A DNA stretch of 64,000 nt from Bartonella krasnovii (GTDB lineage Bacteria; Pseudomonadota; Alphaproteobacteria; Rhizobiales; Rhizobiaceae), in NCBI RefSeq assembly GCF_003606345.3, contig NZ_CP031844.2, forward strand, positions 248,001-312,000, read 5' to 3'. The first letter of the stretch is position 1, and every line of letters starts with the position of its first letter. Positions 6,484 through 25,782 of this stretch are shown in pieces. Under the pieces are notes generated by a model. It was not told the origin of the DNA, did no database searches, and saw only the letters and a program-made list of their open reading frames with translations. The position numbers and the translations under genes were made by a program.

Positions 6484-6493
6484 TCTTTTCTCC

Positions 6494-8234: not shown

Positions 8235-8982
8235 GAGCATCATTGTTATGTTGCTGGGGCTTGGGATTTGCGTCTGGTCATGAAATATCATTAGCGCAAA
8301 AAGATGGTTTTAAAGGTAAAGATATATTTTTAATATTCCTATAAAACTTCGAGAAGAGACAGAATTATCTATTAGAAAATATATAAATGTCCAGTGTGAT
8401 AATATTATCGAATTACATGACATCATCGCTCTTGCCCGCTATTTTGACATAGCGCTTAAAATCTCATTGAGATTGTGCCATATCCTGGCAAATGAGGATA
8501 GATCGCGTTTTGGTATGACTGCGGTGGACTTACATGCCGCATTGTCTTTGCTAGAATCCAATAGAATTAGGCTTAATGGGGAGCATTTGCATGTGGGCTC
8601 TAATTTGAATTCGACTGAGTTAATTGTATCCACCTTAACTAAGGCTGGAAAGGATATTTACGCATTGAAGGATCAGATAAGTTTTATCAGTCTAGGCGGG
8701 GGATATCCAACTTCCACAGAGTTCTGCGATGCTGTGATGGTCAATGACGAATACCCTCGTAAAATTTATGAGGCATTGTCACAATTGGGTTGTGATTTAC
8801 ATAAGCTTACAGTAATTATTGAACCTAGGCGTGTTATATCTGAGATTATGGTTATTTATTTTCAATTGGATAAAATTGTCCAGTTTTGCGTTAGTAAACA
8901 CATTTTATGGGTAACATGTATATGCTGTCCAATGGCTTCTGTAGACATTGATTCTAATTTGCCATTAATGACGATGTCTTAG
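8235..8982 (+). pseudogene. PLP decarboxylase (MccE-type) relic
   Basis: A degraded paralog of the decarboxylase domain of the intact gene at 21,938. Aligned by eye: QKDGFKGKDIFL with its LKAGFTGDKIVL; RSRFGMT with RSRFGVT; GEHLHVGSN with GFHLHIGSN; SLGGGYPTS with DIGGGFPAD; IIEPRRVISE with FFEPGRYISE. The frame changes at about 8330, and the N-terminal part carrying the PLP lysine is not recognisable. The last stretch (8860-8982) no longer matches. Fold-III PLP decarboxylases of this kind act on amino acids or on an aminocarboxypropyl group. Confidence 0.75.
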
Positions 8983-9595: not shown

Positions 9596-10926
9596 TGAAG
9601 AAATTGCTCTCTCTTGGTATGCCACTGGCTATTGGGTTTATCTCTCAGATGATGATTTCCTTCACAGATGCAGCACTTGTGGCGCATTTAGGTGTTCAAG
9701 CCTTGAGTGGTACAATGTTAGCTCTGAGTATGTTTAGTTTTGTTATGTTATTGGGACTAGGGATTATTACCGCTGTTGCACCAAAACTTGCGGAAAGCTT
9801 TCGCAGACAAGATAGATATGCATTGAAGGCATGGTTTGATCAGGGAATATGGCTTTCCCTTTTGATTGGAATGATGAGTGCGATTATTTTACTCAATACG
9901 AGGAATATTTTATGTCTTTTCGGCCAAGATGAGGCAATTGCCCATATAGCGCAGGAATATAATAGTGGCGCTGCTATAGGGGTGGTGTTTTTTTATCTTT
10001 ATGTAAATAGCCGCGGATTACTTTCAGCAATTGGTCATCCAAAGCCCTTAACTTTTGTTATGCTTGCAGCTATTCTGGTAAATTTTCTTATCTCTTGGCC
10101 GCTTATTTTTGGTATAGGTCCAGTAAGCGGATTTGGTGTCTTTGGTGCTGGGATTGCGAGTAGTTTGATCCGTATTTTGATTGTTCTGGCAGTAGCAATA
10201 ATTCTGTCCCGCAATTCTACTTTTAGTTCCTTTCACTTTAATTATTTAAGACCAAAGTTAGAAATTGCACGAATAATACAATTACTGCGAGTAGGGATTC
10301 CCATTGGTATTCGTATTCTTATTGCGGAGGGCTTTCCTTCTGTCATTGCCTTCATGATTACGGCTTATGGGGTCGAAGCTTTGGCTGCGCATACGATTGG
10401 AATGCGTCTTGATATGCTTATTTCTGTGGTAGCTTTGGGGATTTCCAGTGCAGCCGCGACCATAGCAGCGTGGTATCGAGCAGATGAGAATCATATGGCT
10501 CTAAAACAGTTACGTATGAGTATCACAGTTTTTGCTGCAGCTTATGTCTTGTTTTTATCAGGGATTGTATATCTCTCTTATGAATTTATCCTTACAACCA
10601 TCTTTGATATTTCTTCAGTCCGCGTTGTTGTTCTCTCTTGGGAGTTGCTTCCGTTTGTCTTATTGTCTTTTGCTTTTGGCACTTTAGGAGCTATGCTCAA
10701 TGGCATACTTGTGGGTTTGCTTGATACGTTTTGGTCAATCATTGTGGTCACAATAAGCTATTGGGGGGTAGGCTTATTTGGAGGCGCGCTCTTGGCATAT
10801 TTTTTTGAATATGGCTTTATGGGCTATTGGCTTGGCATGATTGGCGCAAACTTAAACGTTTCTTTCTTTAATTATATGCGCGTGGGTTATTTAATAAAAC
10901 GCAATTCTCTGTTTGGAGTGGGGTGA
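9595..10926 (+). CDS. MATE family efflux transporter
   Basis: Start at ATG 9595 by the TGATG overlap with the upstream relic; ATG 9583 is also in frame. The product is 443 residues with 12 hydrophobic segments. The NorM-like hallmarks are FISQMMISFTDAALVAHLG in TM1, YLYVNSRGLLSAIGHPKP after TM4, and the mirrored EGFPSVIAFMITAYGVEALAA in the second half. MATE carriers expel cationic drugs or metabolites using Na+ or H+. The gene is intact while its operon partners (decarboxylase, unknown gene) are broken. That pattern fits an exporter kept after loss of the pathway it served, though it could also be a general efflux pump. Confidence 0.88.
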   Translation: MKKLLSLGMPLAIGFISQMMISFTDAALVAHLGVQALSGTMLALSMFSFVMLLGLGIITAVAPKLAESFRRQDRYALKAWFDQGIWLSLLIGMMSAIILLNTRNILCLFGQDEAIAHIAQEYNSGAAIGVVFFYLYVNSRGLLSAIGHPKPLTFVMLAAILVNFLISWPLIFGIGPVSGFGVFGAGIASSLIRILIVLAVAIILSRNSTFSSFHFNYLRPKLEIARIIQLLRVGIPIGIRILIAEGFPSVIAFMITAYGVEALAAHTIGMRLDMLISVVALGISSAAATIAAWYRADENHMALKQLRMSITVFAAAYVLFLSGIVYLSYEFILTTIFDISSVRVVVLSWELLPFVLLSFAFGTLGAMLNGILVGLLDTFWSIIVVTISYWGVGLFGGALLAYFFEYGFMGYWLGMIGANLNVSFFNYMRVGYLIKRNSLFGVG

Positions 10927-10976
10927 GTGTTATAAAAGCACTCTAAGCACTCACTGTGAAGGCATAGCTCCTCATC

Positions 10977-11005
10977 CTCCATAGAGGTTGTTTACTTCTA
11001 TGGAG
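10977..11005. terminator. 9-bp stem-loop after MATE gene
   Basis: CTCCATAGA (10977-10985) pairs with TCTATGGAG (10997-11005), with an 11-base loop. There is no strong T-tract. A weaker GTGAGTG/CACTCAC pair lies just before it. Confidence 0.4.
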
Positions 11006-11459
11006 ATAACAGCATAGGTTACAAAACTTACATCATATTGAAAAGGGGGACCTTTGATTATGACCTCAATATGATCTGTTGAGTTTTGAAAATAATATGC
11101 GTTTATGAGAAACATTCAGCCTTACAATGAGAAATAAGCTCGGTAAATGGGAATAGTTTAATACTGTAAAAATGACGAGAAAAGTATGTCTATATTTATA
11201 AGCTGTTGAGGGGTCATTTTAAAAAAGTTATTGTTTCTATAAGTTAAGGACAATGGCGGTGTTAAAGTGCGTTTGTCAAAATAATCGCCAGCTGCTGATG
11301 GTGTTATTCTTGCAAGTCCTGCTTGCGCGGACAAGGGAGAACTAAAAGTAGATGCCAACATAATCCCTTACGAAATTGGTTTTTATTATGTCTAAATAAA
11401 TTATGAAGAAATTTATGTTTTAGTCGTCCGTGATAATACTTGTTTGTGCGTGATCAAGC
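11006..11459. other. Intergenic with a doubtful minus-strand peptide
   Basis: A 67-codon minus-strand frame (11,361 down to 11,158) has AAGGGATT just before its ATG, an Ala/Ser-rich N-terminus and no family likeness. I leave it uncalled. The rest is AT-rich, without recognisable genes. Confidence 0.35.
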
Positions 11460-11976
11460 CTCATGTAAAGGAATTTTCAAATTACCCATGGTGATATGTC
11501 GTCAAATTGGCGATTCAGTGCTTCGATTTCTCAGAAATGTAGCGGGCACTAGAATATAACCATATTAGGGATGGTCTTGTGCCAATTGATAAGCTTACTG
11601 ATAATGTTTGTAAGTGCCATAATAGCGCACAAAGAGAAATGAAAAACCGCCGTCTTTAATTATGCAAAACAGCGCGCCGACTTAGAGCGCGAAATTATTG
11701 TTCTTGCAAAGCAAGACAAAAAAAGCAAAATGATCAAAATGTGGTAATGCGAACTGATCTAGCTGACTTGCATAAGAGCAAAGAGATAAAACAAGCACAA
11801 GAAACTTTGCAAAATAAAGAGAACAGCTTATACGACATTTTGCATGAAAGTAAATTTGTAGAGGATACAGAAATAAATGGGATAAAAGGAATTGCAACGT
11901 ACAAAAGAAATATTCATAGACATATTTTATACTAAGCGTAACGGAGAAACGCAAAGATGAGTATAATAGCGGGTGA
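11460..11976 (+). repeat. Direct repeat B (mod upstream block)
   Basis: Second copy of the block at 4,466-4,977. It carries the same small decayed frames (for example 11,741-11,935) and the same AACGGAGAA ribosome site. The likeness ends just after the sixth codon of mod (MSIIAG), so the recombination edge lies within the start of the methylase gene. Confidence 0.85.
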
Positions 11977-13852
11977 AGATAAAATAGAAGGCATGAGTCA
12001 AAGCCCAGTTAATCCAGACATGGAGAAGTTAAAAGCAGTATTTCCGCAATGTTTTGCTGAGGGCAAGCTAGATATAGACCAGCTTCTTAATCTATGCGGC
12101 GAATATATCGATAATGATTTTGAGAAATTCAAATTTGAATGGAAGGGCAAAGGAGCGAGTTTAAAGCTTGCACAAAAACCTTCACTTGCAACTTTGCGTC
12201 CGAAGCGCGAGGAGAGCGTAAGCTTTGATAATACACATAATCTTTATATTAAGGGCGATAATCTTGAAGTATTAAAGCTTATCCAGCGGGCTTATTTTGG
12301 CCAAGTGAAGATGATCTATATAGACCCGCCCTATAATACGGGGAATGATTTTATCTATGATGATGATTTTAAAGACCCGTTGGCGCGCTATAAGGAAGTG
12401 ACGAGCCAAACGACCAAATCGAATCCTGAGACAATGGGGCGGTTTCACACGGCGTGGCTCAATATGATTTATCCGCGCTTGCGTTTGGCACAGACCTTAT
12501 TGCGTGACGATGGGGTGATATTTATCTCGATTGATGATCATGAAGTGCATAATTTGCGCAAAGTGTGCGACGAGGTGTTTGGCGAGGAGAATTTTAGAAA
12601 CGTTTTTATCCTGAAACGTTATGATAAAAATATCAATAGTCAATTCGTTCAAGATGGATTGGTTAGCTTTAATACTGGTTTTGAGTATGTGCTTTGCTAT
12701 GCTAAATCTAGCAAATTTAAATTTAACCCTGTGTATCGGGAAGCGAGTGAGAAACGGCAGGCAGCAGGATACTGGAAAGGTTTCTGGAATAATGCTGATC
12801 GTCCAACGATGCGTTACGATATTTTAGACTTTACGCCAAATGAGGGGCAATGGAAATGGTCAAAAGAAAAAGCAGAGGAAGCGATTGCAAATTATGTTGA
12901 TTACTTAGAAAATCATTCCTCTATTTCACTAGAAGAATATTGGAGAAAGACGGGTTGCACTAAAAAATTTATACGTAGAAATCCTTCTGGCAAGGGGAAA
13001 AATATGGGCGTTGAACATTGGATTCCGCCTACAGAAAATATTTTACGAAATACAAACTGGTTAGATCATTTTGCCTCTAAACCGTTAGAAGATTTTAAGG
13101 GGGCGTTCGATTTTCCGAAAAATCCAGAGGCGATAAAGGTTCTATTAGAAAGTAGTACAAGCGAGAACGACATAATCCTCGATTTTTTCGCGGGCTCTAG
13201 CACGACCGCCCACGCGGTGATGGACTTAAACGCGCAAGATGGCGGCAATCGTAAATTCATCATGGTGCAATTGCCTGAATTGTGTGATGAGAAGAGCGAA
13301 GCTTATAAGGCTGGTTATAAAACTATCTGCGATATAGGAATTGAACGTATTCGCCGCGCTGGTGCACAAATTAAGCAAAAGCATAAAGCAGAACTCATAG
13401 GTGAGCAGCCTCTAGACACTGGATTTCGTGTGCTAGAGCTCGATAGTTCTAACTTTCCCATATGGGACGATAGTCCGATTGATCCGAATGCACTTGATGT
13501 TAAAGAACAATTGCGAATGCGCTTTGATCATGTTTTGCGGGGGGTAAATCCCGAGCACTCTCATCAAGATATTATTTTCGAGATCATGCTTAAATATGGT
13601 TGGTCACTGGATTTAAAAATTTATCCTTTACCAATCAATGGAAAAAAATTCTATTATATAGGCGAGAGCGAAGGCGATGTCTTGGTGATTATAGCCATAG
13701 ATCCGCCTTTTGAACCTGAAGATGCGGAGGAGATGATAAAATATTTGCCCGTAAAAATCGTAGCGCTTGATGCGGCCTTTGAAGGTGATGAGGCGCTTAT
13801 TAATTGCGACTTTATCTTTAAAGACAATGAAGTAAGTTTTGATAAAATTTAA
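11957..13852 (+). CDS. mod: Type III restriction-modification methylase (Mod)
   Basis: 631 residues, the usual size of type III Mod subunits. It is a beta-class N6-adenine methyltransferase: motif IV DPPYNTGN at about residues 123-130 comes first and the SAM-binding DFFAGSSTTAHAVM at about 409-422 later, with the variable target-recognition region between. Mod sets the DNA target for itself and for Res. The start at 11957 has GGAGA upstream, but its first six codons are shared with a repeat copy elsewhere; ATG 11993 (MSQSPVNP) may be the ancestral start. The stop is 28 bp from res. No repeat tract of the phase-variable modA type is seen. Confidence 0.95.
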   Translation: MSIIAGEDKIEGMSQSPVNPDMEKLKAVFPQCFAEGKLDIDQLLNLCGEYIDNDFEKFKFEWKGKGASLKLAQKPSLATLRPKREESVSFDNTHNLYIKGDNLEVLKLIQRAYFGQVKMIYIDPPYNTGNDFIYDDDFKDPLARYKEVTSQTTKSNPETMGRFHTAWLNMIYPRLRLAQTLLRDDGVIFISIDDHEVHNLRKVCDEVFGEENFRNVFILKRYDKNINSQFVQDGLVSFNTGFEYVLCYAKSSKFKFNPVYREASEKRQAAGYWKGFWNNADRPTMRYDILDFTPNEGQWKWSKEKAEEAIANYVDYLENHSSISLEEYWRKTGCTKKFIRRNPSGKGKNMGVEHWIPPTENILRNTNWLDHFASKPLEDFKGAFDFPKNPEAIKVLLESSTSENDIILDFFAGSSTTAHAVMDLNAQDGGNRKFIMVQLPELCDEKSEAYKAGYKTICDIGIERIRRAGAQIKQKHKAELIGEQPLDTGFRVLELDSSNFPIWDDSPIDPNALDVKEQLRMRFDHVLRGVNPEHSHQDIIFEIMLKYGWSLDLKIYPLPINGKKFYYIGESEGDVLVIIAIDPPFEPEDAEEMIKYLPVKIVALDAAFEGDEALINCDFIFKDNEVSFDKI

Positions 13853-13880: not shown

Positions 13881-16800
13881 ATGAAACTTAAATTTAAAAA
13901 ACAAGAATTTCAAAATGATGCGGTTAAAAGCGTCACTGATTTATTTAAAGGACAAGCGCGAAGAGCTTCTTCTTTTTCCTTGCGTTCCGAACCAGGACAA
14001 TTAGCGTTAAAAGAATTTGGCTATGGTAATCAATTATCGATTAGTGATGAAAGCATATTAGCAAATTTACGAGAGGTGCAACAGAACAATAAACTCTTGG
14101 TGAGTAAGACGCTAGAGCAAAAGCAGTTTTCTATTGAGATGGAAACGGGGACAGGCAAAACCTATGTCTATAGCAAGACGATTTTTGAGTTAAATCAACG
14201 CTATGGCTTTACTAAATTTATTATTGTCGTACCAAGTGTTGCGATTCGCGAAGGGGTATATAAATCACTGCAGGTAACGAGGGAGCATTTTCAAGCAGAG
14301 TTTGATAATCTGCCCTATCGTTATTTTATTTATAATTCAAAAGATCTTTCGCAAATTCGCCAATTTGCAAACTCGACCAATATTGAAATTATGATTATCA
14401 ATATTGATGCATTTAAAAAAGCAGAAAATATTATCAATCTTCCGCAGGATAAACTGAATGGCGAAAGTGCTATGCGCTATATCCAAGACACAAATCCGAT
14501 TGTGATCATAGATGAACCGCAATCAGTGGATAATACAGCAAAAGCGAAGGAGGCTATTGTAAGTCTTAATCCGCTTTGTGTTTTCCGCTATAGTGCCACG
14601 CATAAAGATGAGATTAATCTTTTATATCGTCTAACACCTGTTGATGCTTATAAAAAAGGACTGGTGAAGCAAATTTGTGTCTCTTCTAATCAGATAGAGA
14701 AAGATTTTAATCGTCCCTATATTGCTCTGAAAGGCGTATCACACGAACATGGCTTTAAGGCGCGGTTAGAGCTAGACGTTGCCGGCAAAGGCGGCACTGT
14801 CAGCCGCAAGACCATGACGGTTAAACCAGGGGATGATCTGTATCTCATTACGGGCGGGCGTGAGCTTTATAGGGGGTACATTGTTTCGGGTATCAATTGC
14901 ATGGCGGGGGATGAAGCCGTTGAGTTTTCTGATACTGAAATTGTTAAATTTGGCCATCCGCTTGGTGATGTGAATACAATAGAGCTTAAACGTGCGCAAA
15001 TTTATCGCACTATAGAAACACATTTAGATAAGGAATTGCGGCTTGTACCTTTAGGGATCAAAGTTTTATCACTTTTTTTTATTGATGAGGTGGCTAAATA
15101 TCGTAGCAATGATGAAGAGCCCGCGCTTTATGAGCGTATGTTTGAAGAATGTTATGAAGAGCTGTTGGCGAAAGAGAAATATGCACTCTTGCGGACTAGG
15201 TTTACGCAAAATGTTCGAAACGTGCACGGGGGTTATTTCTCGCAAGACAGGAAGGGAGTGTATAAGGATACAAAAGGCGACAGCCAAGCTGATGATGACA
15301 CTTATAACACAATTATGCGAGATAAGGAGTGGTTATTATCTTTTGCATGCCCCTTACGTTTTATCTTTTCGCATTCAGCATTGAGGGAAGGCTGGGATAA
15401 TCCGAATGTGTTTCAAGTGTGCATGTTGATTGAGCAAAAATCGAATTTTACTGCACGGCAAAAGATTGGTCGCGGTTTGCGCTTGTGCGTAAACCAACAA
15501 GGTGAGCAGGTAGAAGATAAAGATATAAATGTGCTGCATGTCATGGTGAATGAAAGTTTTGCTGAGTTTGTGAGTACATTGCAAAAAGAATTAGAGGCAG
15601 ATATTGGTTATAAATTTGGTACATTGCAGATGGAGCAGTTGGTTGGCCGTATGTATGAAGATGTAAAATATGTGGCCGCTAAAGTGGAAGTGCCGCAAGC
15701 ACAAAAAATTGTTAAAACGCTTGTTGCAAAAGATTTGATTGATGAGGCGGGTGTCGTAAAAGTAGATCAAGATTTAGTGGCTAGTGAATTTGAAGCTATA
15801 GCGACGTCGGAAATGCCACGCGAGTTATATCAAGAAATTGTCAAAAAAATTAATGCAGGCGCGCTTATTAATGTTGAGACGCTGCAAGATCTGACGTATA
15901 CAATAGCTGTCATGGAAACAAAGACTCTGTCTTCGCAAGAGGCTGCTGGTATATTGGTTGAGTTGCGTGAAAAAGCCTTGCTTACATCAGCAGGGAAAAT
16001 TACAGATACATTAAAAATGCAATGGGCGGCTGGGACGTTGGATTTAAGTGAACGTTTTAGTAAAGGGCAGAAGCAAGCTGTGCTGCAGGCGTTAGAAGCA
16101 AGCCAAGCCATGCCGATTATTCGTAATGCTACACGTGAGGTGCGGGTTAAGCTTAAAAAGCAAACAGTTATTTCGCCGGAGTTTTTATCCTTGTGGGAGA
16201 AGATCAATAAAAAGACCACTTATCGTGCAAAGCTTGATCACACAGAGTTTGTTGCCAAAGCAGTGGATGCAGTGAAAAAAATGGCGCCAGTTGCGCCTGC
16301 GCATTTGGTTTATCAGACAGCAGAGATAGAACTGGATAGTTCTGGTGTAACCTATGAAGAGAAGTTATTAAAGCAGAGTGCGCTTGATTATAGTTCGTGT
16401 GCACTGCCGAACATCATACATTATTTGACCTTAAAGCTGAAATTAACCGCAAAGACAATTATTGGTATTTTGATAAAGAGTGGTCGTGAGCATGAGTTTG
16501 TGAAAAATCCACAAGCTTTTTTAGAGCGCATAGAAGAAATACTCAATAAAACCCATGTTAATTTGGCAATTGATGGCATTAAGTATTTAAAGCTAGTTGG
16601 GAAAGAATATAGTGTGCAAGAGCTTTTTACCAGTAAAGAGCTTGTGGCGAATTTAGAGCGTACAGCTGTTGTGAGTGAGAAGAGTGTGTATGATCATGTG
16701 GTTTATGAAAGCAGTGTGGAGAAAGAGTTTGCACAAAGTCTTGAAAATGATCCTGAAGTCAGATTGTTTTTTAAACTGCCAAGAAGTTTTAAAATAGCCA

Positions 16801-17084
16801 CTCCCATTGGTTCTTATACGCCGGATTGGGCGGTATTTTTAGAGCGCGAGGGCGAACAAAAGCTTTATTTTGTTCTGGAGACAAAAGGAGCAAGCAGCGA
16901 GTTTGATTTGCGCCTTAAAGAAATACTGAAGATTAAATGTGGCAAAGCGCATTTTGATGCACTGCAAACGAGCGTTGTATTTAATGACCAGCCGGTGACA
17001 AATTGGCGTGCATATAAGCGTGGGGTGTCGGCGAGGGACGGTGTGACGGGGACGCCAAGTACTGAACTCGTCGCTGCGGAATGA
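13881..17084 (+). CDS. res: Type III restriction endonuclease subunit (Res)
   Basis: 1067 residues, full length for the family. Helicase core: Walker A METGTGKT (about 87-94), the type III form of motif II DEPQ (about 211-214), and motif VI QKIGRGLRL in the second RecA lobe. The C-terminal nuclease has a PD-(D/E)xK site with TPDW (D about 982) and ETKG (E about 1000, K about 1002). With Mod it cuts DNA after ATP-driven communication between two inversely oriented sites. All key residues are present, so the system looks functional. Two truncated copies of its 3' end follow downstream (18,366 and 20,700). Confidence 0.96.
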   Translation: MKLKFKKQEFQNDAVKSVTDLFKGQARRASSFSLRSEPGQLALKEFGYGNQLSISDESILANLREVQQNNKLLVSKTLEQKQFSIEMETGTGKTYVYSKTIFELNQRYGFTKFIIVVPSVAIREGVYKSLQVTREHFQAEFDNLPYRYFIYNSKDLSQIRQFANSTNIEIMIINIDAFKKAENIINLPQDKLNGESAMRYIQDTNPIVIIDEPQSVDNTAKAKEAIVSLNPLCVFRYSATHKDEINLLYRLTPVDAYKKGLVKQICVSSNQIEKDFNRPYIALKGVSHEHGFKARLELDVAGKGGTVSRKTMTVKPGDDLYLITGGRELYRGYIVSGINCMAGDEAVEFSDTEIVKFGHPLGDVNTIELKRAQIYRTIETHLDKELRLVPLGIKVLSLFFIDEVAKYRSNDEEPALYERMFEECYEELLAKEKYALLRTRFTQNVRNVHGGYFSQDRKGVYKDTKGDSQADDDTYNTIMRDKEWLLSFACPLRFIFSHSALREGWDNPNVFQVCMLIEQKSNFTARQKIGRGLRLCVNQQGEQVEDKDINVLHVMVNESFAEFVSTLQKELEADIGYKFGTLQMEQLVGRMYEDVKYVAAKVEVPQAQKIVKTLVAKDLIDEAGVVKVDQDLVASEFEAIATSEMPRELYQEIVKKINAGALINVETLQDLTYTIAVMETKTLSSQEAAGILVELREKALLTSAGKITDTLKMQWAAGTLDLSERFSKGQKQAVLQALEASQAMPIIRNATREVRVKLKKQTVISPEFLSLWEKINKKTTYRAKLDHTEFVAKAVDAVKKMAPVAPAHLVYQTAEIELDSSGVTYEEKLLKQSALDYSSCALPNIIHYLTLKLKLTAKTIIGILIKSGREHEFVKNPQAFLERIEEILNKTHVNLAIDGIKYLKLVGKEYSVQELFTSKELVANLERTAVVSEKSVYDHVVYESSVEKEFAQSLENDPEVRLFFKLPRSFKIATPIGSYTPDWAVFLEREGEQKLYFVLETKGASSEFDLRLKEILKIKCGKAHFDALQTSVVFNDQPVTNWRAYKRGVSARDGVTGTPSTELVAAE

Positions 17085-17228
17085 AGGGGGTATGGGGAAG
17101 AATAAGTGGCTTGTAGCAACACGTTATATTCTTTTGAAATAAATTTATGAATTTAAAAGTTTGAAGAACTTGATAGGGTCTATTTTTAAAGCAACAATAA
17201 AATAGATTAATATTCGCGGAGAGTGTTT

Positions 17229-17704
17229 ATGGAAGTTGCAATTCCCCAAGCTTTGTTGTCTGATGCGTTAGAAATCAGCCGCTTTCTTGTTGAGACTTGG
17301 CATGATACTTATGATGCAGTGCTTGGTGCAGATGTTGTTACAGCTCAAACGGATAAATGGCATAATATTGAAGCTATAAGTGATCAGATCAAAAATGTGG
17401 TACCTTGTTCTTGATAGCAAGGTGGATGGACAAAATTGCTGGCCATATATTTTTTGATTGTTCTGATAAGGATAAAGCTTATTTAGCAAGGCTTTATGTG
17501 CTACCTTCCTATCAGCGTTTAGGAATCTGCGAAAAACTGCTTGAACAAGCTATAGCGATCAATAAGATACAAGGTAGGATTCATCTTAAAGTGAACAGCG
17601 AGAATATCAAAGGCCTTTCCTTTTGTGAAAAATTAGGTTTTAAGAGAATTGGTCAATTATACGAAGATGGGGGAACACTTTTGATTATGGAGAAAGAGAT
17701 ATAA
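17229..17704 (+). pseudogene. GNAT N-acetyltransferase, frameshifted
   Basis: ATG 17229 follows GGAGAG. The first about 57 codons (to about 17,400) and a second frame from about 17,405 to 17,704 together give a RimI-like GNAT of about 155 residues. Motif A is AYLARLYVLPSYQRLGICEKLL, in which QRLGIC replaces the usual QxxGxG/A; later come NxxGLSFCEKLGFK and a typical ending. One base change near 17,400 restores the frame. It may be a recent mutation or a read error. It is the first cargo gene after res; the substrate is unknown, possibly a toxin, drug or peptide. Confidence 0.75.
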
Positions 17705-18365
17705 AAAGTTTTGCTTTTTTAAGTCATTAAAAGGGATAATATGTGTCTCTATTTGAATTTTTTACGTTAAAAGTTCTAAGCGCGGAATAATAACTTGTAT
17801 TACACAGATTGCTCTTTGCTTTAATGTTGCATTAGTTCTCTTTATTATAAATGCATGCGGTTTATGCGAGGCAGGGAATTCGCAATCTGTTAATTTACAA
17901 TTTTACAGCAACATGTGGGGTATATTCTTTAAGTCACTTCCATAATTTAGAAGCTGTTGGTACAGAAATGTTAGCTCCCTTGTGCTGGTAATGAGGGTTG
18001 GATGACGTGATTATCGCAGCGCATTTTTGTTCTCATCAATCCGAAACCAAGTTATTTCAGACAAGGGCTAAATATGTGTTTTGGGATTATTATTTTGATC
18101 AGTCATAGGTACAATTTTTAAAAGGTGGTCCATATGGATGGGTTTGGAATATAGTATTTTTGGGGGACACTCGCCTGCACAATGCATTTTCGTGTTGGTT
18201 GATTGAGCAGCTGGTCTCATGATCAAAGCCACCACCGCATGTTGTTGATGTTTTTCGCTCACGTGCAGATGATAAAATAATTGCTGAATGTGTGCAGCGT
18301 AAATAAAATTGATTCTACATCTGTAAGATGAGGTCATAAAAGGCGATCATATGGCCGGCGGCGGT
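17705..18365. other. Intergenic, no gene recognised
   Basis: AT-rich, with many stops. A 90-codon minus-strand frame (18,337 to 18,068) has no good ribosome site or clear family, and I do not call it. Confidence 0.4.
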
Positions 18366-18763
18366 CAATGGAAAAGAGTTTATGATCATGTGATTTGTGA
18401 GAGCCGTATTGAGAAAGAGTTTGCGCAAAATCTCGATAATGCCCCTGATGTAAGATTGTTTTTTAAACTGCCAAGGAGTTTTAAAATTGTAACGTTCATT
18501 GGCTCTTATACGCCAGATTGAGCAGTATGAGCGCGCGAGGGTGAACAAAAGCTTTATTTTAGCTGGAGACAAAAGGGGCAAACAGCGAGTTTGATTTGCG
18601 CCTTAAAGAAATGGCGAAGATTAAGTGCGGAAAAGCGTGTTTTGATGCCCTGCAAAATGGATGTTGCTTTTAATGATCAAGCCGGTAACAAATTGGCGTG
18701 CGTATAAGCGTACTTTGCTTCAAGGGGTGCATAATTTCCAAGTGCTGCGGTGGTTGTTGTAGA
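18366..18763 (+). pseudogene. 3' fragment of res, copy 2
   Basis: Aligns with res 16,683-17,084: the VYDHVVYES region, FFKLPRSFKI, the TPDW site (here a TGA replaces the Trp codon) and the ETKG region. It is broken by several indels and stops and ends at a res-like stop. Only the nuclease-domain coding end is present, so this is a recombination scar and not a gene. Confidence 0.88.
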
Positions 18764-18900
18764 ATGATTGGTGCATGAAATACTTTAATATGGGCGCGGG
18801 GGAAGAGCAAAGCTTTTTATATCAAAATAATACATTGACAAAAAAAATTAGCTATAAAGTAGCTATAATGTGTACTTCATGTTATTTAATTGTTTTCATT
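18764..18900. repeat. Tandem duplication, copy 1 (promoter region)
   Basis: 137 bp directly followed by a near-copy (18,901-19,036). It contains TTGACA at 18,835-18,840 and TAGCTATAAAGTAGCTATA from 18,850. It begins at the stop region of the res fragment, so the duplication used that junction. Confidence 0.8.
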
Positions 18901-19036
18901 ATGATTGATGCGTGAAATACTTAGCTTAAGCGTGGGGAGGAGAGTAAAACTTTTTACATCAAAATAACAAATTGACAAAAGGTAGCTATAAAGTAGCTAC
19001 AGTATGTGCTTCATGTTAAATTTAATTGTTTTCATT
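18901..19036. repeat. Tandem duplication, copy 2 (promoter region)
   Basis: The second unit, immediately upstream of the ribosome-binding site of the 40-residue peptide gene. It differs from copy 1 by scattered substitutions and small indels; TTGACA is at 18,972-18,977. Confidence 0.8.
18972..19003 (+). promoter_or_regulatory. Promoter/operator of the peptide operon
   Basis: A consensus -35 hexamer TTGACA is followed by the inverted repeat GTAGCTA-TAAAG-TAGCTAC (18,982-19,000). A TACAGT/AGTATG sequence near 18,998-19,006 is the best -10 candidate, although the spacing from TTGACA (about 20 bp) is longer than ideal. A repressor bound to the inverted repeat would sit between the two elements. 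Copy 1 has the same element in the form TAGCTA-TAAAG-TAGCTA with TATAAT at 18,864. Confidence 0.5.
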
Positions 19037-19055
19037 TAATACAGGAGGTAAAGTT

Positions 19056-19178
19056 ATGAAAAATAAAGATATGTATAAACCACTGAAAAAAATTCAAATT
19101 AAGCGGGTTGATGTTACTGCGCTCAAAACTCTGTCAAATGAGCAGAAAATGGCTACTCGACGCTCCCTTGCGAATTGA
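19056..19178 (+). CDS. mccA: MccA-like antibiotic precursor peptide
   Basis: A 40-residue ORF missed by length cut-offs. A perfect AGGAGG (19,043-19,048) lies 7 bases before the ATG. The peptide is basic in its N-terminal half (MKNKDMYKPLKKIQIKR) and ends SLAN. In microcin C systems the precursor (E. coli heptapeptide ending NAN, longer ones in other bacteria) must end in Asn, which MccB joins to a nucleotide. Ending in Asn, the stem-loop 12 bp downstream, the MFS gene and the MccD/MccE-type genes behind it all fit. The alternative is a regulatory leader peptide for the transporter. Confidence 0.68.
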   Translation: MKNKDMYKPLKKIQIKRVDVTALKTLSNEQKMATRRSLAN

Positions 19179-19190
19179 GGTTTAAAAAAA

Positions 19191-19228
19191 CTATAAAGCT
19201 GGTGGCAAAAAAGCTGCCAGCTTTATAG
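19191..19228 (+). terminator. Stem-loop between peptide and exporter genes
   Basis: CTATAAAGCTGG (19,191-19,202) pairs perfectly with CCAGCTTTATAG (19,217-19,228); a nested pairing is also possible. It starts 12 bp after the peptide stop and ends 15 bp before the MFS ATG, without a U-run. In the E. coli mcc operon a similar hairpin after mccA lowers transcription of the downstream genes, so that peptide is made in excess over enzymes. The same role is likely here. Confidence 0.65.
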
Positions 19229-19243
19229 CTTTAGGATATATTA

Positions 19244-20494
19244 ATGGCGATAGATTATGAAGTTAAAAAATTGCTCTATGGCTGTGCGGCAATGAGCGGG
19301 GTTCGGCTGATTACAGGTTCCTTCCATGCTTTTTTTTGGTTGTCTATGGGCGTTAGTGTAACACAGCTCGCTTTGTTGCAAATTGTGTTTAGCGTGGCTA
19401 TTTGTATTTTTGAAGTACCGTGTGGGATTTTAGGAGATAAAATCGGCGTTAAACAAAATGTTATCTTTTCATGTTTCTTTTTTTCACTCTTCTTCTTTTT
19501 ATGTATCTACGCGCCTAATCTTTCTGTCTTAATTCCGGCAGAAATTATTTATGCTTTAGCCTTTGCTTTATGTTCTGGCGCTGATAGCGCGTGGATTAAA
19601 GGTTTAATCGACGGCAGTCTTTACAAGGGTAGTTTGGTCTATCACCAAGTAAACGCCTATAAGCGGGAACTAACAGCATTCATGAATATGATTGCTGGTG
19701 CACTAGGTGTTCTTATTGTTTTGTCTATGGATAATTATCAGTCGGCATATTATTTTTGTTCTTTTGGGTTTCTCGTGCTTGTATTCTGGTTTAGTCGGGT
19801 GAGGGGAGTGGGTATTGCATCCGTTGGGAGTAGTCAGCTAAGAAACTCAGGTTCTTTGTTGCATGCAACAGAAGCTTTTGTTTATTTAGTTACCTCAAAA
19901 ATCGGGTTATATTATATATTGATATGTGGTTTTATTGTTGCTGCCTTGCAGCCAATATTTCATTTTTGGCAACCTTTTATTTTGGAACAAACAGGAGCAT
20001 TAGATAATGCAACAGGGAAGACTAAAATTCTTATTCTTGGCCTGTGCTTTGTGTCTTATAGTTTTGTCAAATACTTATTTAATCGCTTTGTCATTAAATA
20101 TCTTATGCAAAAATATGCTCCTATGGCGATAACTTTGTGCTCGCTAGTCCTGAGTGCTGTTGTTATGCTTGCTCTGCTTCTTGTTGCGAACAGTTGGGCT
20201 CCCATTATTTTATTCACCATATTTCACAGTTTTTTTTCTGTCCCTGTGACGCAGTTTGAAGCAGAATTTTTTAAACATATTCAACAAAAGAACGCGAATA
20301 CGGTTTTATCTATTGTGAGTTTTCTTGCGCGTATTTTTGGTATTTTAGCGCTTATACTGATTGGTTGGTTGGCAAGTAATATTGGTATAGAAGCAGCTTT
20401 TTGTTTCGCTTTGCTTTGTATATGTTTGGTTATCCCGCTTAATTTGGCCTGGCTTTATACTGATAAAAAGTTAATAAAAGGCGAGGGGGCTTGA
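19244..20494 (+). CDS. mccC: MFS exporter, MccC-like
   Basis: 416 residues, 12 membrane segments. After TM2 is EVPCGILGDKIGVKQ, the MFS motif A in the form seen in MccC-type and related peptide exporters; a central loop with GADSAWIKGLIDGSLYKG and an intact second half follow. AGGATA precedes the ATG. In microcin C clusters this protein pumps the finished conjugate out and so also protects the producer. It follows the peptide gene and stem-loop directly; its stop overlaps the next frame (TTG 20,491, GTG 20,497). Confidence 0.75.
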   Translation: MAIDYEVKKLLYGCAAMSGVRLITGSFHAFFWLSMGVSVTQLALLQIVFSVAICIFEVPCGILGDKIGVKQNVIFSCFFFSLFFFLCIYAPNLSVLIPAEIIYALAFALCSGADSAWIKGLIDGSLYKGSLVYHQVNAYKRELTAFMNMIAGALGVLIVLSMDNYQSAYYFCSFGFLVLVFWFSRVRGVGIASVGSSQLRNSGSLLHATEAFVYLVTSKIGLYYILICGFIVAALQPIFHFWQPFILEQTGALDNATGKTKILILGLCFVSYSFVKYLFNRFVIKYLMQKYAPMAITLCSLVLSAVVMLALLLVANSWAPIILFTIFHSFFSVPVTQFEAEFFKHIQQKNANTVLSIVSFLARIFGILALILIGWLASNIGIEAAFCFALLCICLVIPLNLAWLYTDKKLIKGEGA

Positions 20495-20496
20495 GA

Positions 20497-20705
20497 GTGA
20501 AGATACAGTTGAACAAGGCCTTGCCTATGACTTACATAAAGACACAGGAAAAAATAGTGTGTGGGTCATTTTATATGGATTTCATCGAAATGAATAGCGG
20601 TCTATCATTTTTAGGAGAGATGCTTACAGATTTGAATGCGCCAAATAATTGTGCTGCTATAAGCCAGAAATATCGGAGCGAACATATCAAGAGGCTTATG
20701 ATATT
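20497..20705 (+). pseudogene. Truncated next operon gene, possible mccB 5' end
   Basis: A frame starting at GTG 20,497 (or TTG 20,491, overlapping the exporter stop) runs for about 65 codons (KIQLNKALPMTYI, FLGEMLTDLNAP, AAISQKY) before it meets sequence that is clearly res at about 20,700. The piece looks like the start of a real gene, with Leu/Glu-rich helices like the small peptide-binding (RRE/PqqD-type) domain at the start of MccB, and sits where an mccB could be. The rest, including any ThiF-like adenylation domain, is gone. The family assignment is inference. Confidence 0.35.
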
Positions 20706-21117
20706 GATGTTTTGCTAAAGAGTGGGCGCATATTAGATTTTGTAAAAAAAACGCAAGCTTTTTTAGAGTGCGTGGAGGAAATCTTCAATAAAGCGCATGT
20801 CAATCTCACTATTGATAGTATTAATAAGCTGGCCAAGACTATAGCGTGCAAGAATGTTTTGCAAGTAGCGAACTTTTGGCGAATTTAGAACGGACCGCTG
20901 TGACGAGTGAGAAAAGCATGTATGATCATGTGGTTTATAAGAGTAATATTGAGAAAGAATTTGTGCAAAATCAATGATAATGTCTCAGAAGTAAAATTAT
21001 TTTTTTATTACCAAGGAGAGCTTTAAAATTGTGACGATCATAGGCTCTTACACGCCGGATTTGGTGGTGTTTTTAGAGCGCGAGGGAGAACAAAAGCTTT
21101 ACTTTGTGCTGGAGATC
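20700..21117 (+). pseudogene. 3' fragment of res, copy 3
   Basis: Aligns with res about 16,457-16,880: LLKSGR...DFVKKTQAFLE against res LIKSGREHEFVKNPQAFLE, then the NKTHVNL region, the VYDHVVY region and TPD. It has several frameshifts and ends abruptly before the ETKG codons, where the ribosome site of the next gene begins. The left edge interrupts the gene after the exporter. Confidence 0.88.
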
Positions 21118-21148
21118 TGTTTAAAAAATCCTATAAGGAGGAAATTAT

Positions 21149-21953
21149 ATGATGGAGCTTAGTGATTATTTGCGAAGTTTGAAGACGTTTGTTCGATGAG
21201 TCATGCTGATTTTGTGGCGCTGATGAAACAGGATAATACGCCGCTCGGTGGTAACTATACTGTTGATTATTGGATAAGGATGCTAGCATTCATCACGAGT
21301 CTGTGTTGTTGGATCTTGCTGGCTCTACCGGTTACAGTTTGCGTTATTATTTTGAAAAAACTGGATCTTCTGTTGAGGGCATTAGTATATCTGAAGTAGC
21401 AATCATTATTGCTCGCGAGTTAGCAGCTAAGCTTGCAGCGGATGGCCGTTTACGCTATCAAGTTTCTGACGCCTGCAGGCTTCCTTTTTATACAGAAACG
21501 TTCACTTATGTACTCGGTGAATGTAATTTTGCATTTATTCGAGCAAGAGAACAAGCCCTGTCTGAGGTCAGTTGTGTTTTGAAAGGAGAGGGCGTTCTTT
21601 GTACTTCAAATTTTTACTATAGAAGGACGCCTAGCGATAAAATGATTATTGACATTTATAGCGCCTAGGATTCAAACTTGATCCTGCTTGGACGCTGCAT
21701 TATTGGCATGACTTTTTTGGCAAAGCAGGATTGGAACTGGATCATGAAAAGAATGATGAATTATTGTCTTGTCCCTATGAAGAGCTTAAAGAAAATCTTC
21801 GTAGATATATTAGAATTGCAAATAAGTTTACTTGTCAGCTTGAGGAAAATACGCAGGAAGCATTTTATTCAGCAGTATCTTGCTATCCGTGCTCCTCTTA
21901 ATGCTCAACGAGATTATCAGGGAGTTACCATACAGGTATGGCGCAAAAAATAG
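21149..21953 (+). pseudogene. mccD: MccD-like SAM-dependent transferase, frameshifted
   Basis: AGGAGG (21,137-21,142) and ATG 21,149 are in good order, but the frame breaks at about 21,197, 21,290, 21,665 and again near 21,890. Joined, it is a class I SAM-binding protein of about 260 residues: motif I VLLDLAGSTGYS, then VEGISIS, SDACRLPF and LGECNFAFI. In microcin C maturation MccD moves the 3-amino-3-carboxypropyl group of SAM to the nucleotide phosphate, and the decarboxylase half of MccE then trims it. Position just before an MccE homolog is the reason for this reading. The enzyme is surely inactive if the sequence is right. Confidence 0.62.
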
Positions 21954-23707
21954 TAGATCAAAATATTATCATGGCAGCTAAACGACTGTGTGAACGCCAG
22001 CCTTATGGCGACGAGCCATTTTTTATATTCGATGTTGATTCTGCGCTGGAACGGGCTCTGCGTTTGCAAGCGGTCTGTCAGCAATATTTTCTGGACGCAG
22101 TTATTGCTGTTTCGGTTAAGTCATGCTCGTTAGGTTTGTTGTTGCGACTAATCGCTGAGCACGGACTTAGCGCAGAAGTATGCTCGGCAGATGAGCTTCA
22201 GCTAGCTTTAAAGGCTGGTTTTACTGGCGATAAGATTGTATTGAATGGGCCTTATAAATCTCTCAACGATCTTTCTCAAGGGATTGCTAAAAATGCACTG
22301 ATTCATGTCGACAGTCCGCACGAACTCAAGGCCATAATTGATCTGGTTTCTGATACTGACCGCGTAGTGGGTCTTGGCTTAAGATTGGCACATTTTTACA
22401 AAGATAGCCAGCGTTCTCGTTTTGGCGTGACAGTGGAAGAATTTGAGGAAGAAATCGTTCCCTTGCTGCAATCTTGCAAGAATGTTTATCTTAAGGGCTT
22501 TCATCTTCATATCGGTTCGAATCTGGAAAGTCCGGTACGAATTATTGAGAACTTGCGTGATTGGCTTCCCTTCCTTTTAAAAAATATGCCTAAGGGAGGA
22601 TATCTTGATATAGGGGGCGGATTTCCAGCAGACTCCTTCTCAGCAGATGCTGAAGTTATGGCTACGAAACCACGGGAGTTTTTTCAAGGAATTTTTAATG
22701 TTTTATCTGAACAAGATCCCACTTTACCTGCTAGATGGAAATTGTTTTTTGAGCCTGGTCGGTATATCAGCGAAGATCATGGTTATGCTGTAGGGAAAAC
22801 TGTGAGTATTAAAAAGCGCGGTCAGGTCGATATTATACAGACAAATATCGGCATTAACTGGATACCTTCTGCGCGTGTTTGGCATCATTCGCTTGTGCCC
22901 TTAGAAGAGAAAAAAAACGCTCGTGGTAAACATGGTCAGATATTAGCAGGTTTTAACTGTTTTGAAAATGATTGCCTTTTTCCCAAGGAGGATTACGGTT
23001 TGGGCCAAGATCAGTTGTTTATTATTCGCGGTTGCGGTTCTTATGATTTACAAACTGCTCATGAATGGACGCGTCTTAAACCTCCCGTATATGCTTTATA
23101 CAAAAAAGATATCGTAACAGCTAGGCTTGCAGAAAATGCCTTACCAGCTGGGCGAGTAGACTTATTGCATGCAGAGGAAGCTATTAGTGTGGATAAAAAT
23201 ATTCAACTCGCACCCGCGTCCTCGAGATATGCTTCCGAACTTTTTAATATCATAGATCGTAATAGAAAAGAATTCAGTCAATATATGGCTTGGCCACGTT
23301 ATGTTATGAATGAACATGATGAAGCTATTTTTCTTGACGTTTGCTTTTTGCAACATCAGAAGAATGATGGAAAAACATATGCTATTTTGTTTGATGAAGC
23401 TCCAGTGGGATTACTTTCTTTCAATAGGATTGATAGTGGTAATAAGACCGCTTATATCGGCTATTGGCTTGATTTAAAACTTCAAGGAAAAGGGATTATC
23501 ACTAAGTCTGTGAGAGCCTTGATACAGTCTTATTTGAAATCTGGCGAAATCAAAAGATTTGTCATAACATGCTCCGTAGACAACCAAAAAAGCAATGCAG
23601 TAGCACAGCGCTGTGGCTTTGAGCTTGAGGGCAGATTGAGAAAAGCTGAATTGTTGAACGGCGTTTTTCATGATCAGAATATTTATAGCTTTATAATGTC
23701 TGATTAG
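21938..23707 (+). CDS. mccE: MccE-like PLP decarboxylase-acetyltransferase fusion
   Basis: 589 residues, two domains. Residues about 20-400 are a fold-III (alanine-racemase fold) PLP decarboxylase: K61 in AVSVKSC is the likely PLP lysine, then GFHLHIGSN (188-195), GGGFP (226-230), EPGR (272-275) and FNCFEND (C341 as the catalytic Cys). Residues about 425-589 are a RimL-type GNAT with QGKGI (516-520) and CGFELEGRLRKAELLNG. This is the MccE architecture. In E. coli the first half helps make the aminopropyl group and the second acetylates processed microcin C, giving self-immunity. All key residues are present, unlike the broken gene it overlaps by 16 bp. E. coli MccE is about 520 residues. Confidence 0.85.
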   Translation: MAQKIVDQNIIMAAKRLCERQPYGDEPFFIFDVDSALERALRLQAVCQQYFLDAVIAVSVKSCSLGLLLRLIAEHGLSAEVCSADELQLALKAGFTGDKIVLNGPYKSLNDLSQGIAKNALIHVDSPHELKAIIDLVSDTDRVVGLGLRLAHFYKDSQRSRFGVTVEEFEEEIVPLLQSCKNVYLKGFHLHIGSNLESPVRIIENLRDWLPFLLKNMPKGGYLDIGGGFPADSFSADAEVMATKPREFFQGIFNVLSEQDPTLPARWKLFFEPGRYISEDHGYAVGKTVSIKKRGQVDIIQTNIGINWIPSARVWHHSLVPLEEKKNARGKHGQILAGFNCFENDCLFPKEDYGLGQDQLFIIRGCGSYDLQTAHEWTRLKPPVYALYKKDIVTARLAENALPAGRVDLLHAEEAISVDKNIQLAPASSRYASELFNIIDRNRKEFSQYMAWPRYVMNEHDEAIFLDVCFLQHQKNDGKTYAILFDEAPVGLLSFNRIDSGNKTAYIGYWLDLKLQGKGIITKSVRALIQSYLKSGEIKRFVITCSVDNQKSNAVAQRCGFELEGRLRKAELLNGVFHDQNIYSFIMSD

Positions 23708-24354
23708 CTAAAAAAGTATTTCTTGATATATTGTATGGGTTGTACCGATGAGGTAGGTCGTCAATACTAAATAAAATTCAGTCGCGCAAATAAGAAGTCA
23801 TATGGACAGTGTCTGGAGAGGGGCAAAAAAATCATTGAGGGGGCTAGTGCTTTAAATCAAGCTAGATTTGTTAGCAGAATAGGAAATTTGCCTTTCGTTC
23901 AGCCGTCCACCAATTCTGGGTGCTTCTCGTTGTTTCAAGTGTTTATCGCAGTTGCGGTAAGGCGCAGTTAATGAGACGCTATGATTGGGTATCTTGCTGT
24001 ATAGATTTAGCAAGCAGAAGTGGCGGTGCGTATCGCTTCTTTGTGTCCATGAAGAGTAGAGATGTCATAATTACGTTGAGCATCCACTATAAGATTTTAT
24101 ACGATTATTGCTTGCCAGAATGGCTTTAGGTCTTTTGTTTTTTACAAACAGAACGTTAGTATCGATGTATCGCGATAGTGCCATTTTTCACTATGTTTAA
24201 TATGATAAGCAGCTTATAATAATAATAAGGTCTCTTTCACCTTGATGGGAGTTGCATATTCTCTAAAATGAAGTTGATAAGGGTTTTTAGTAACGCTTAA
24301 ACATGAGATGATACCATAAGAGCGGGCTTTGATTGTTTTTTTAATTGGTGTGTT
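23708..24354. other. Island/core boundary, no gene recognised
   Basis: About 650 bp between the accessory island and the core genes. A 69-codon frame at 23,920-24,129 starts with TTG or similar and has no family likeness; the rest is AT-rich. I see no repeat marking the island end. Confidence 0.4.
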
Positions 24355-25782
24355 ATGGCTGTAAAAAATGGTAAACAAATGAAAAAAAAGAGCTCTAAGC
24401 CTGTTTGTGGTTTTCTTAAAAATTTACGAGGTGTAAGAAATTGGGAGCAAGTTTCGCAGTGGCTCGCTTTCCGTAATGTAGAAGATATTGAATGTATTAC
24501 GCCTGATCAAGCAGGAGTACCCCGCGGCAAGATGATGCTTTCTAAAAAATTTACCTCGGAAACATCATTGGCATTACCTTCAGCGGTTTTTGTCGCAACA
24601 ATCTCAGGAGATTATCCTGAAGATGGTCATGGTTTTGAATATCCCAAAGCAGATGGTGATCTACGCCTTGAACCTGATTTGTCTACATTAAGTATTGTAC
24701 CATGGGAAGATGCCCCCACAGCACAAGTGATTTGTGATCTTGTCTATCAAAATGGACAGGTTGTGGATTACACACCACGAAATGTTTTACGAAAAGTCAT
24801 TGATTTTTATACGAAAATGGGACTAAAGCCTGTTGTTTCACCGGAAATTGAGTTTTATTTGGTAGAAAAAAATCCTGATCCTGATTATCCTTTAGTTCCT
24901 CCAGTTGGTCGTTCTGGACGTTCAATTGGTGGGGGGCAGGGCTATTCGATTGCCGGTGTGAATGAGTTTGATGAGTTCATTGATGATATTTATCATTTTT
25001 CGGAAGCACAAGGGTTGGAGATTGATACACTCATTCATGAGGAAGGGGCAGGTCAGTTTGAAATAAATTTACGCCATGGTGATCCCATCGAATTAGCTGA
25101 TCAAGTTTTTATGTTTAAACGAACAATTCGTGAAGCAGCACTAAAGCATAATATGTATGCCACTTTTATGGCCAAGCCTATTCAAGGGCAGCCAGGTTCT
25201 GCGATGCATATTCATCAATCAGTTGTTGATAAGAAGACGGGTATGAACATTTTTACACAAAAGGATGGTGAAGAAAGTGTCTGTTTTCGTCATTTTATTG
25301 GTGGATTACAAAGGCATATGGCAGGAGCACTTGTAATGCTTGCACCTTATGTAAATTCTTATCGACGTCTTATGCCTGATATTTCAGCACCTGTTAATTT
25401 GCGATGGGGATATGACAACCGTACCACAGCGTTTCGTGTCCCTCGTTCTGCTCCTCAAGCACGACGTGTTGAAAATAGGCTTCCCTCATCAGATACTAAT
25501 CCTTATTTAGCGCTTGCGGCTTCTTTAGCTTGCGGTCTCATTGGATTACAGCAAAAGCTTGAACCCGATGAGCCAACAACAAGTAATGTGAATGCTGATA
25601 ACATTGAATTACCGCGTGGCCTTATTGAAGCGGTCAATTTATTTGAACAAGATACAGCGATACGTGCTATTCTAGGAGATGTGTTTGTCAGTACTTATGC
25701 TGCAATCAAACGTCAAGAGTTTGAAACTTTTATGGAAGTAATTAGCCCGTGGGAGCGCGAATATCTCTTGCTTAATGTCTAA
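24355..25782 (+). CDS. puuA: Glutamine synthetase family, PuuA-like
   Basis: 475 residues, class III/PuuA-type glutamine synthetase fold: SPEIEFYLVE and HEEGAGQFEINLRHGDPIELAD (metal and glutamate binding), KPIQGQPGSAMHIHQS, and NLRWGYDNRTTAFRVPRS near the C-terminus. PuuA joins glutamate to putrescine to start its breakdown; relatives use other amines. The next gene is an FAD amine oxidase of PuuB type, 11 bp away, which supports a gamma-glutamyl-polyamine pathway. The amine used cannot be read from the sequence. Confidence 0.85.
   Translation: MAVKNGKQMKKKSSKPVCGFLKNLRGVRNWEQVSQWLAFRNVEDIECITPDQAGVPRGKMMLSKKFTSETSLALPSAVFVATISGDYPEDGHGFEYPKADGDLRLEPDLSTLSIVPWEDAPTAQVICDLVYQNGQVVDYTPRNVLRKVIDFYTKMGLKPVVSPEIEFYLVEKNPDPDYPLVPPVGRSGRSIGGGQGYSIAGVNEFDEFIDDIYHFSEAQGLEIDTLIHEEGAGQFEINLRHGDPIELADQVFMFKRTIREAALKHNMYATFMAKPIQGQPGSAMHIHQSVVDKKTGMNIFTQKDGEESVCFRHFIGGLQRHMAGALVMLAPYVNSYRRLMPDISAPVNLRWGYDNRTTAFRVPRSAPQARRVENRLPSSDTNPYLALAASLACGLIGLQQKLEPDEPTTSNVNADNIELPRGLIEAVNLFEQDTAIRAILGDVFVSTYAAIKRQEFETFMEVISPWEREYLLLNV

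Follow-up and report, generated by a model that had tools for sequence, protein, structure and literature searches.

A locus at positions 18764-23707 of a 64,000-nucleotide stretch of the Bartonella krasnovii genome (the window, positions 248001-312000 of contig 1 in a 2.19 Mb genome) descends, judging by homology and gene order, from microcin C (mcc) operons. We read it, with a probability of about 0.72, as a decayed composite operon in a nonproducer, in which MccE would be retained as an immunity or resistance gene against foreign microcin C; the bacterium probably kept its shield (MccE) after losing its weapon (antibiotic synthesis). The locus comprises, in order, an open reading frame (ORF) of 40 codons ending in Asn, a hairpin, a major facilitator superfamily (MFS) gene, a broken mccD, and an intact MccE-type fusion. 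The original prediction, made from this DNA alone, had named every one of these elements in this order but overlooked a remnant of mccB (20494-20717) and a res fragment (20718 to ~21115). The features of the locus are as follows.

18798..19018, + strand, imperfect tandem duplication (18798-18884 and 18935-19018) in the region upstream of mccA, repeat families D6 and D7
19056..19178, + strand, mccA-like precursor ORF, 40 aa, C-terminal Asn
19191..19228, + strand, hairpin of 16 bp between mccA and mccC
19244..20494, + strand, mccC-like MFS exporter, intact, 416 aa
20494..20717, + strand, mccB remnant, N-terminal part only (place of the RRE domain)
20718..21115, + strand, res 3' fragment replacing the remainder of mccB, sharing direct repeats D2, D3, and D5 with res at 13881-17084
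21149..21953 (start placed by eye), + strand, mccD pseudogene, in pieces, of an S-adenosylmethionine (SAM)-dependent aminocarboxypropyl transferase
21938..23707, + strand, mccE, intact, 589 aa, with a pyridoxal phosphate (PLP) decarboxylase (~1-400) and a GNAT acetyltransferase (~411-587)

Composition and decay of the locus

The 589-aa fusion carries both MccE domains in one frame (PF02784, E 4.9e-22; PF13302, E 2.2e-16), together with the PLP lysine and the equivalents of Ser553 and Trp453, and is 42% identical over 591 aligned positions to E. coli MccE of plasmid MccC7-H22. The roles of these two residues, of Trp511, and of the other aligned MccE residues follow PMC4363471. The best solved relative of the acetyltransferase half is E. 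coli MccE (3r95; E 2e-48, 168 bits), ahead of the RimL-type structure 1s7f (E 1.1e-40, 143 bits). A 40-row tree set the 12 RimL rows apart at 100/100 and divided the Bartonella MccEs into two groups among MccE, one (the window clade) joined by the MccEs of Pantoea and Salmonella (100/98) and the other, a set of orphans, separate from it (93/87); the E. coli row, on a long branch, is of unsure placement. RimL orthology of the fusion was rejected on this separation.

Among the best 80 of 198 matches of the scan, the closest complete operons for mccD and mccE were those of Pantoea brenneri (L112; MccE 65%) and Brenneria salicis (L114; MccE 60%), each with the heptapeptide MDHSMNN, mccB, mccC, mccD, and mccE. 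The 3' end of mccD overlaps the start of mccE by 16 nt in the window, in E. coli, and in Pantoea. By these likenesses the mccD-mccE half is of the heptapeptide kind found in Pantoea, Brenneria, and E. coli. The P. brenneri and B. salicis operons have their own complete mccB and mccC, which with MDHSMNN match another Bartonella locus (locus 2, below) and not the window locus.

In the E. coli operon a hairpin lies downstream of mccA. The window precursor, MKNKDMYKPLKKIQIKRVDVTALKTLSNEQKMATRRSLAN, is a short Asn-ending ORF behind a strong ribosome-binding site (AGGAGG at 19043-19048), and the hairpin that follows it has a predicted energy of -25.5 kcal/mol (z -4.96, with none of 200 shuffles as good). 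We compared 17 loci upstream of mccC, the window's own included; G050, G052, and G027, which have no mccC start, were left out. The Asn codon and stop (AAT-TGA) are retained in all 17, the frame is intact by script in eight (seven alike in sequence, G067 shifted mid-frame), and 14 are predicted to form the long hairpin, two (G021 and G064) having a 9-bp version and one (G055) a disrupted hairpin. The conservation of Asn-stop, frame, and hairpin is more than chance. The E. coli precursor also ends in Asn (PMC6495379). A length of 40 residues, which the original prediction considered unusual, is ordinary for the long-precursor type, the MccA of Yersinia pseudotuberculosis having 42 residues (PMC6495379) and that of B. 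amyloliquefaciens, of the same type, 19 (PMC12250964). The MFS gene behind the hairpin (PF07690, E 6.5e-17) supplies the MccC exporter of a microcin C operon, at 31% identity to MccC of plasmid MccC7-H22.

Directly 3' of mccC, the 75-codon mccB remnant is 75-76% identical to a stretch in two other Bartonella genomes, G031 and G035, where it is followed by a ThiF domain (PF00899, E 1.2e-26 and 7e-17) within one frame that stops interrupt. In G035 a class I methyltransferase (PF08241, E 1.1e-10) lies in a single open frame with the ThiF part. Next in both loci come a CmoA-like gene, whose match to TIGR00740 (E 9.7e-26 and 1.6e-26) covers the C-terminal half of the profile and stays under the cut-off, a piece resembling YqcI/YcgG (likewise under the cut-off), an mccD-like piece and, by eye, glutamine synthetase, which by eye is also the gene after the window locus. 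Clusters of the carboxymethyl-cytidine kind are recognized by an MccB with a C-terminal carboxymethyltransferase together with an enzyme that supplies the carboxy-SAM donor (PMC12250964). The MccB-methyltransferase fusion and CmoA-like carboxy-SAM synthase are absent from the window, and broken in G035 (both) and G031 (ThiF and CmoA-like). Against E. coli MccB, the ThiF piece of G031 has ~30% identity and the Bartonella locus-2 MccB 46%. The G035 MccB frame had no match at E 1e-20 in 394 genomes of the order of P. brenneri, a search without a positive control in which Yersinia is perhaps unsampled.

By this homology the left half of the locus (40-residue precursor, mccC, and mccB remnant) probably belongs with long-precursor, carboxymethyl-cytidine-type clusters. 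Because the left part continues into carboxymethyl-cytidine genes in relatives and the right part is heptapeptide-like, the window locus reads as a composite of the two mcc types. The claim of an mcc-derived locus in Bartonella is borne out by MccE homology and Asn-stop conservation, and neither outcome named beforehand as counting against it was seen, the fusion aligning best with E. coli MccE and the relatives of the 40-residue ORF conserving their Asn. Of the proposed diverged E. coli-type locus, mcc descent stands and a simple E. coli-type origin does not.

A degenerate PLP decarboxylase fragment at 8320-8982 (+ strand), ~31% identical to MccE, has relatives near the window-type locus (locus 1) in other Bartonella genomes, some of them beside mccD-like pieces; it is possibly the mccE of the long-type cluster.

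The remnant of mccB ends at a junction (20717/20718) with sequence from the neighboring type III res gene. Among the 20 loci given, the left flank is present in 17, nine of them with the res junction, three (G018, G031, and G035) with a broken mccB, and five with neither; since nine genomes have it in common, the junction is probably old. An intact version with mccB, to be sought in other Bartonella genomes according to the original prediction, did not appear, none of the 20 loci having an intact long-type mccB. The transferase is homologous to MccD yet broken, being split over ~21149-21953 with PF08241 (E 1.5e-10) on one piece and 55% identity to E. coli MccD in the larger piece; mccD is broken in all seven loci having it, and 13 of the 20 are without it.

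The res 3' end is present in three copies on the + strand (16494-16968, 18371-18656, and 20718-21115), the full gene occupying 13881-17084; the other two copies are fragments that bracket mccA-mccC.

A second mcc locus in the same genome (locus 2; C1 ~1550100-1552474, L048 ~10100-12475) has the heptapeptide ORF MDHTECN, an mccB, and an mccC2 frame of 399 aa. This mccB is also broken, its pieces being 46-54% identical to E. coli MccB. At the window locus the N-terminal remnant is the only part of a ThiF-like MccB nucleotidyltransferase. An intact producer was rejected as an interpretation, most of the window mccB being gone and that of locus 2 broken. With mccD broken as well, the locus is to all appearances not a working cluster and the genome cannot make the antibiotic by itself, contrary to the suggestion that its product would be one.

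Survival of MccE and competing explanations

Homology, gene order, the loss of mccB and mccD, the integrity of and constraint on MccE and MccC, and the retention of acetyltransferase residues can all be read from sequence. MccE is open in seven of eight locus-1 copies versus none of seven for mccD. Counts for the genus refer to 71 Bartonella genomes, of which 15 have MccE-derived sequence at an identity of at least 44%; it is full and open in 12, has a stop in G055 and G070, and in G046 consists of part of the acetyltransferase half only. By a rough count of extra pieces and stops there are 19 disruptions in ~1600 mccD codons versus one in ~4700 mccE codons. Pooled pN/pS values against the window are 0.22 for the acetyltransferase half and 0.36 for the decarboxylase half of MccE (five genomes each), 0.30 for mccC (seven genomes, four of them with broken copies), 0.55 for the mccB remnant (six of seven genomes given, G064 yielding no pairs), and 0.68 and 0.83 for the mccD pieces (five genomes). 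The exporter gene is intact in seven of the 18 loci carrying it, and these copies have dN/dS values of 0.11-0.25 (21 pairs).

Constraint on MccE appears strongest on its acetyltransferase half, which has the lower dN/dS in all 21 window-clade pairs and wherever a value could be obtained (27 of 27 pairs). Among MccEs of complete operons (Pantoea, Brenneria, and E. coli) the halves have diverged to the same extent (decarboxylase-to-acetyltransferase ratio 0.95-1.02). In the window clade the decarboxylase half diverges 1.4 to 2.0 times more (six pairs against the window), and orphan pairs have ratios of 1.61 (G008-G026), 1.72 (G008-G016), 2.37 (G026-G016), 2.52 (G008-G007), and 2.94 (G026-G022). 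The PLP lysine is replaced by Gln in G026, G022, and G016 (3 of 18 rows) and, by eye, in G070, and glycine-rich motifs are eroded in other rows. The equivalents of Ser553, Trp453, Trp511, and Leu436 are retained in all 18 MccE rows; Phe466 is Tyr in two, Met451 is Leu in one, and position 493 is Val only in E. coli. In the window MccE itself the decarboxylase motifs are intact, and loss of that activity is not claimed for this protein.

MccE2 abolishes the binding of processed microcin C to aspartyl-tRNA synthetase by acetylating the compound's amino group, and is also the immunity protein of the Y. pseudotuberculosis cluster (PMC9239234). We propose that the left half of the locus came from a long-precursor carboxymethyl-cytidine cluster and the right half (mccD-mccE) from a heptapeptide operon, that most of mccB would then have been replaced by the res fragment, and that mccD would afterward have decayed. 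MccE would have been retained because its acetyltransferase half continues to acetylate processed (isoaspartyl-nucleotide) microcin C from other producers at the amino group, which would protect aspartyl-tRNA synthetase. We infer the acetylation activity, the exposure to foreign microcin C, and protection as the selected trait. Possible sources of the foreign compound are Bartonella with an intact locus-2 mccB, which number seven of the 71 genomes (six by script plus G031, with a 354-aa ORF; G035 is unsure and left out of this count). Immunity, the putative function that survives best at the locus, had been missed in the original prediction. Export by MccC contributes to microcin C immunity, and MccC may be retained for the same reason as MccE, namely efflux.

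The strongest competing explanation, to which we assign a low probability, is recent pseudogenization only, MccE and MccC being the last genes not yet hit. The intact mccA in eight of 17 copies, useless without mccB, would fit such a history, as would the 11 broken copies of mccC, whose ratios (0.26-0.31) are nearly as low as those of intact copies (0.20-0.25), so that low ratios are in part a legacy of the period before disruption. The probably old mccB-res junction common to nine genomes is harder to reconcile with it, as are the many mccD disruptions against the single one in the longer mccE of the same genomes and the approximately threefold gap in pN/pS between mccD and the acetyltransferase half. 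Also against it, a simulation limited to substitutions left mccE open at 5% random change in 2.4% of 500 runs.

Less probable still is recruitment of MccE to another acetylation, for example a RimL-like one on L7/L12, or that of another small substrate. The separate RimL group in the tree and the retention of the nucleobase-stacking Trp453 in every MccE row argue against this, even though the score of the acetyltransferase half lies above the NCBIfam RimL cut-off (187.8 vs. 184 bits) and E. coli RimL itself inactivates microcin C (PMC4363471); moreover, 56 of the 71 genomes are without an MccE-derived match at an identity of at least 44%, unexpected for a housekeeping role. A functional producer using an mccB in trans, to which the intact mccA, hairpin, and mccC of the window and the heptapeptide ORF and mccC2 frame of locus 2 might point, is very improbable with the locus-2 mccB broken, the window mccD broken, and a single ThiF-match protein in the genome besides locus 2.

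Several observations weigh against retention of MccE as an immunity gene. In addition to the RimL cut-off and the ratios of broken mccC copies, they include the stops in G055 and G070 and the 56 genomes without a match. MccE does not track production, an intact locus-2 mccB occurring in 1 of 12 MccE genomes versus 7 of 71 overall. Constraint extends to the decarboxylase half (0.36), which has all its motifs in the window MccE, so the entire protein may have a function. Pantoea compared with the orphans G008 and G007 shows nearly equal divergence of the two halves (1.09 and 1.07), and the dN/dS values of the pair G008-G026 are 0.26 versus 0.23. Finally, genome pairs are not independent, and frames may be open partly through recent recombination.

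Neighboring features of the window

An Rfam search of 17000-25000 returned no families, and a sigma-70 scan of 18700-19300 found one site versus 2.6 expected, with none inside the duplication at 18798-19018. An ORF at 6494-7915 (- strand) resembles the radical SAM proteins HutW/HemW (TIGR04107, E 3.5e-38; PF04055 below cut-off); its N-terminal cysteine motif looks lost by eye, and an MFS gene (5263-6528, - strand) adjoins it. A GNAT acetyltransferase at 17223-17704 (+ strand) extends over two frames and is apparently broken (PF13673, E 1e-13, on the second piece).

Known and proposed immunity genes without biosynthesis

The operon of E. coli plasmid MccC7-H22 (mccABCDE, NC_010257) shares with the window locus an MFS MccC, MccD, a two-domain MccE, the 16-nt mccD-mccE overlap, and an Asn-ending precursor. 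It differs in that the window precursor has 40 residues rather than 7, mccC lies ahead of the mccB remnant, MccC is only 31% identical, most of mccB is gone, mccD is broken, and there is no mccF. The peptide-cytidine clusters of Y. pseudotuberculosis and B. amyloliquefaciens are alike in their long MccA and, in the Bartonella relatives, in the ThiF-methyltransferase frame and CmoA-like gene; unlike them, each Bartonella locus read is degenerate, and the likeness to Yersinia is by description. Immunity without biosynthesis genes is known from stand-alone MccG-type microcin resistance genes (PMC9239234) and from mcbG/mcbF of MccB17 (PMC10926693), from which the window differs in having a full MccE fusion at the site of a dead operon.

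Previously, mcc operons were identified in Bartonella, with production inactivated in B. quintana and B. henselae (PMC10949449); the occurrence of a dead mcc locus in this genus is therefore nothing new by itself. In the open-access literature searched on Bartonella and on microcin C, neither this locus nor an orphan MccE from the genus was described. Among named relatives, loci of the same kind occur in B. florencae, B. gabonensis, and B. massiliensis.

Outside Bartonella, a Salmonella IncFII plasmid (L104, 7524-9613) has an intact MccE, in front of which only the end of mccD is present (corresponding to E. coli residues 157-267); neither mccB nor mccC had a match within the 18.6 kb that were read. 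Sixteen plasmid records match this stretch, 12 of them at 99% or more, and we count near copies as one case; records H83-H85 (86-92%; H83 and H85 indel-rich and taken as poor assemblies) were excluded, and the match of H86 is split at the record start. In Xenorhabdus mauleonii (L115, 9957-11785), likewise, MccE is open and follows a short tip of mccD. In Gilliamella (L119-L129) only the acetyltransferase half matches (53-59%), grouping with MccE and not RimL (9 of 11 in the tree).

PMC9239234 describes as not explicitly checked the question of whether stand-alone enzymes like MccE, MccF, MccG, or MccH provide the self-immunity of minimal three-gene mcc operons. The three-gene operons of Bartonella look as if they rely on neither MccE nor MccF-type enzymes (MccG and MccH were not searched), because among the seven genomes with an intact locus-2 mccB one has an intact MccE and none an S66 peptidase. 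The S66 (MccF-type) peptidase was absent from all 71 genomes in a search whose control matched in 6 of 14. MccE as the usual self-immunity of locus-2 producers was rejected on the single coincidence, and conversely 11 of the 12 genomes with an intact MccE lack an intact locus-2 mccB.

Two types of mcc cluster meet in one blood-dwelling genus, with apparent producers beside apparently protected nonproducers. Since neighboring biosynthetic genes are lost or broken while MccE is open in two Bartonella MccE lineages, in Salmonella plasmids, and in Xenorhabdus, we would give even odds that microcin C-type operons repeatedly became stand-alone shields, the decarboxylase half now being a passenger in some Bartonella. 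Together, intact operons, broken operons that keep MccE, and orphan MccEs whose decarboxylase half is dead form a natural series. If operons did repeatedly become such shields, host-restricted bacteria would be lastingly exposed to peptide-nucleotide antibiotics, possibly from Bartonella with an intact mccB.

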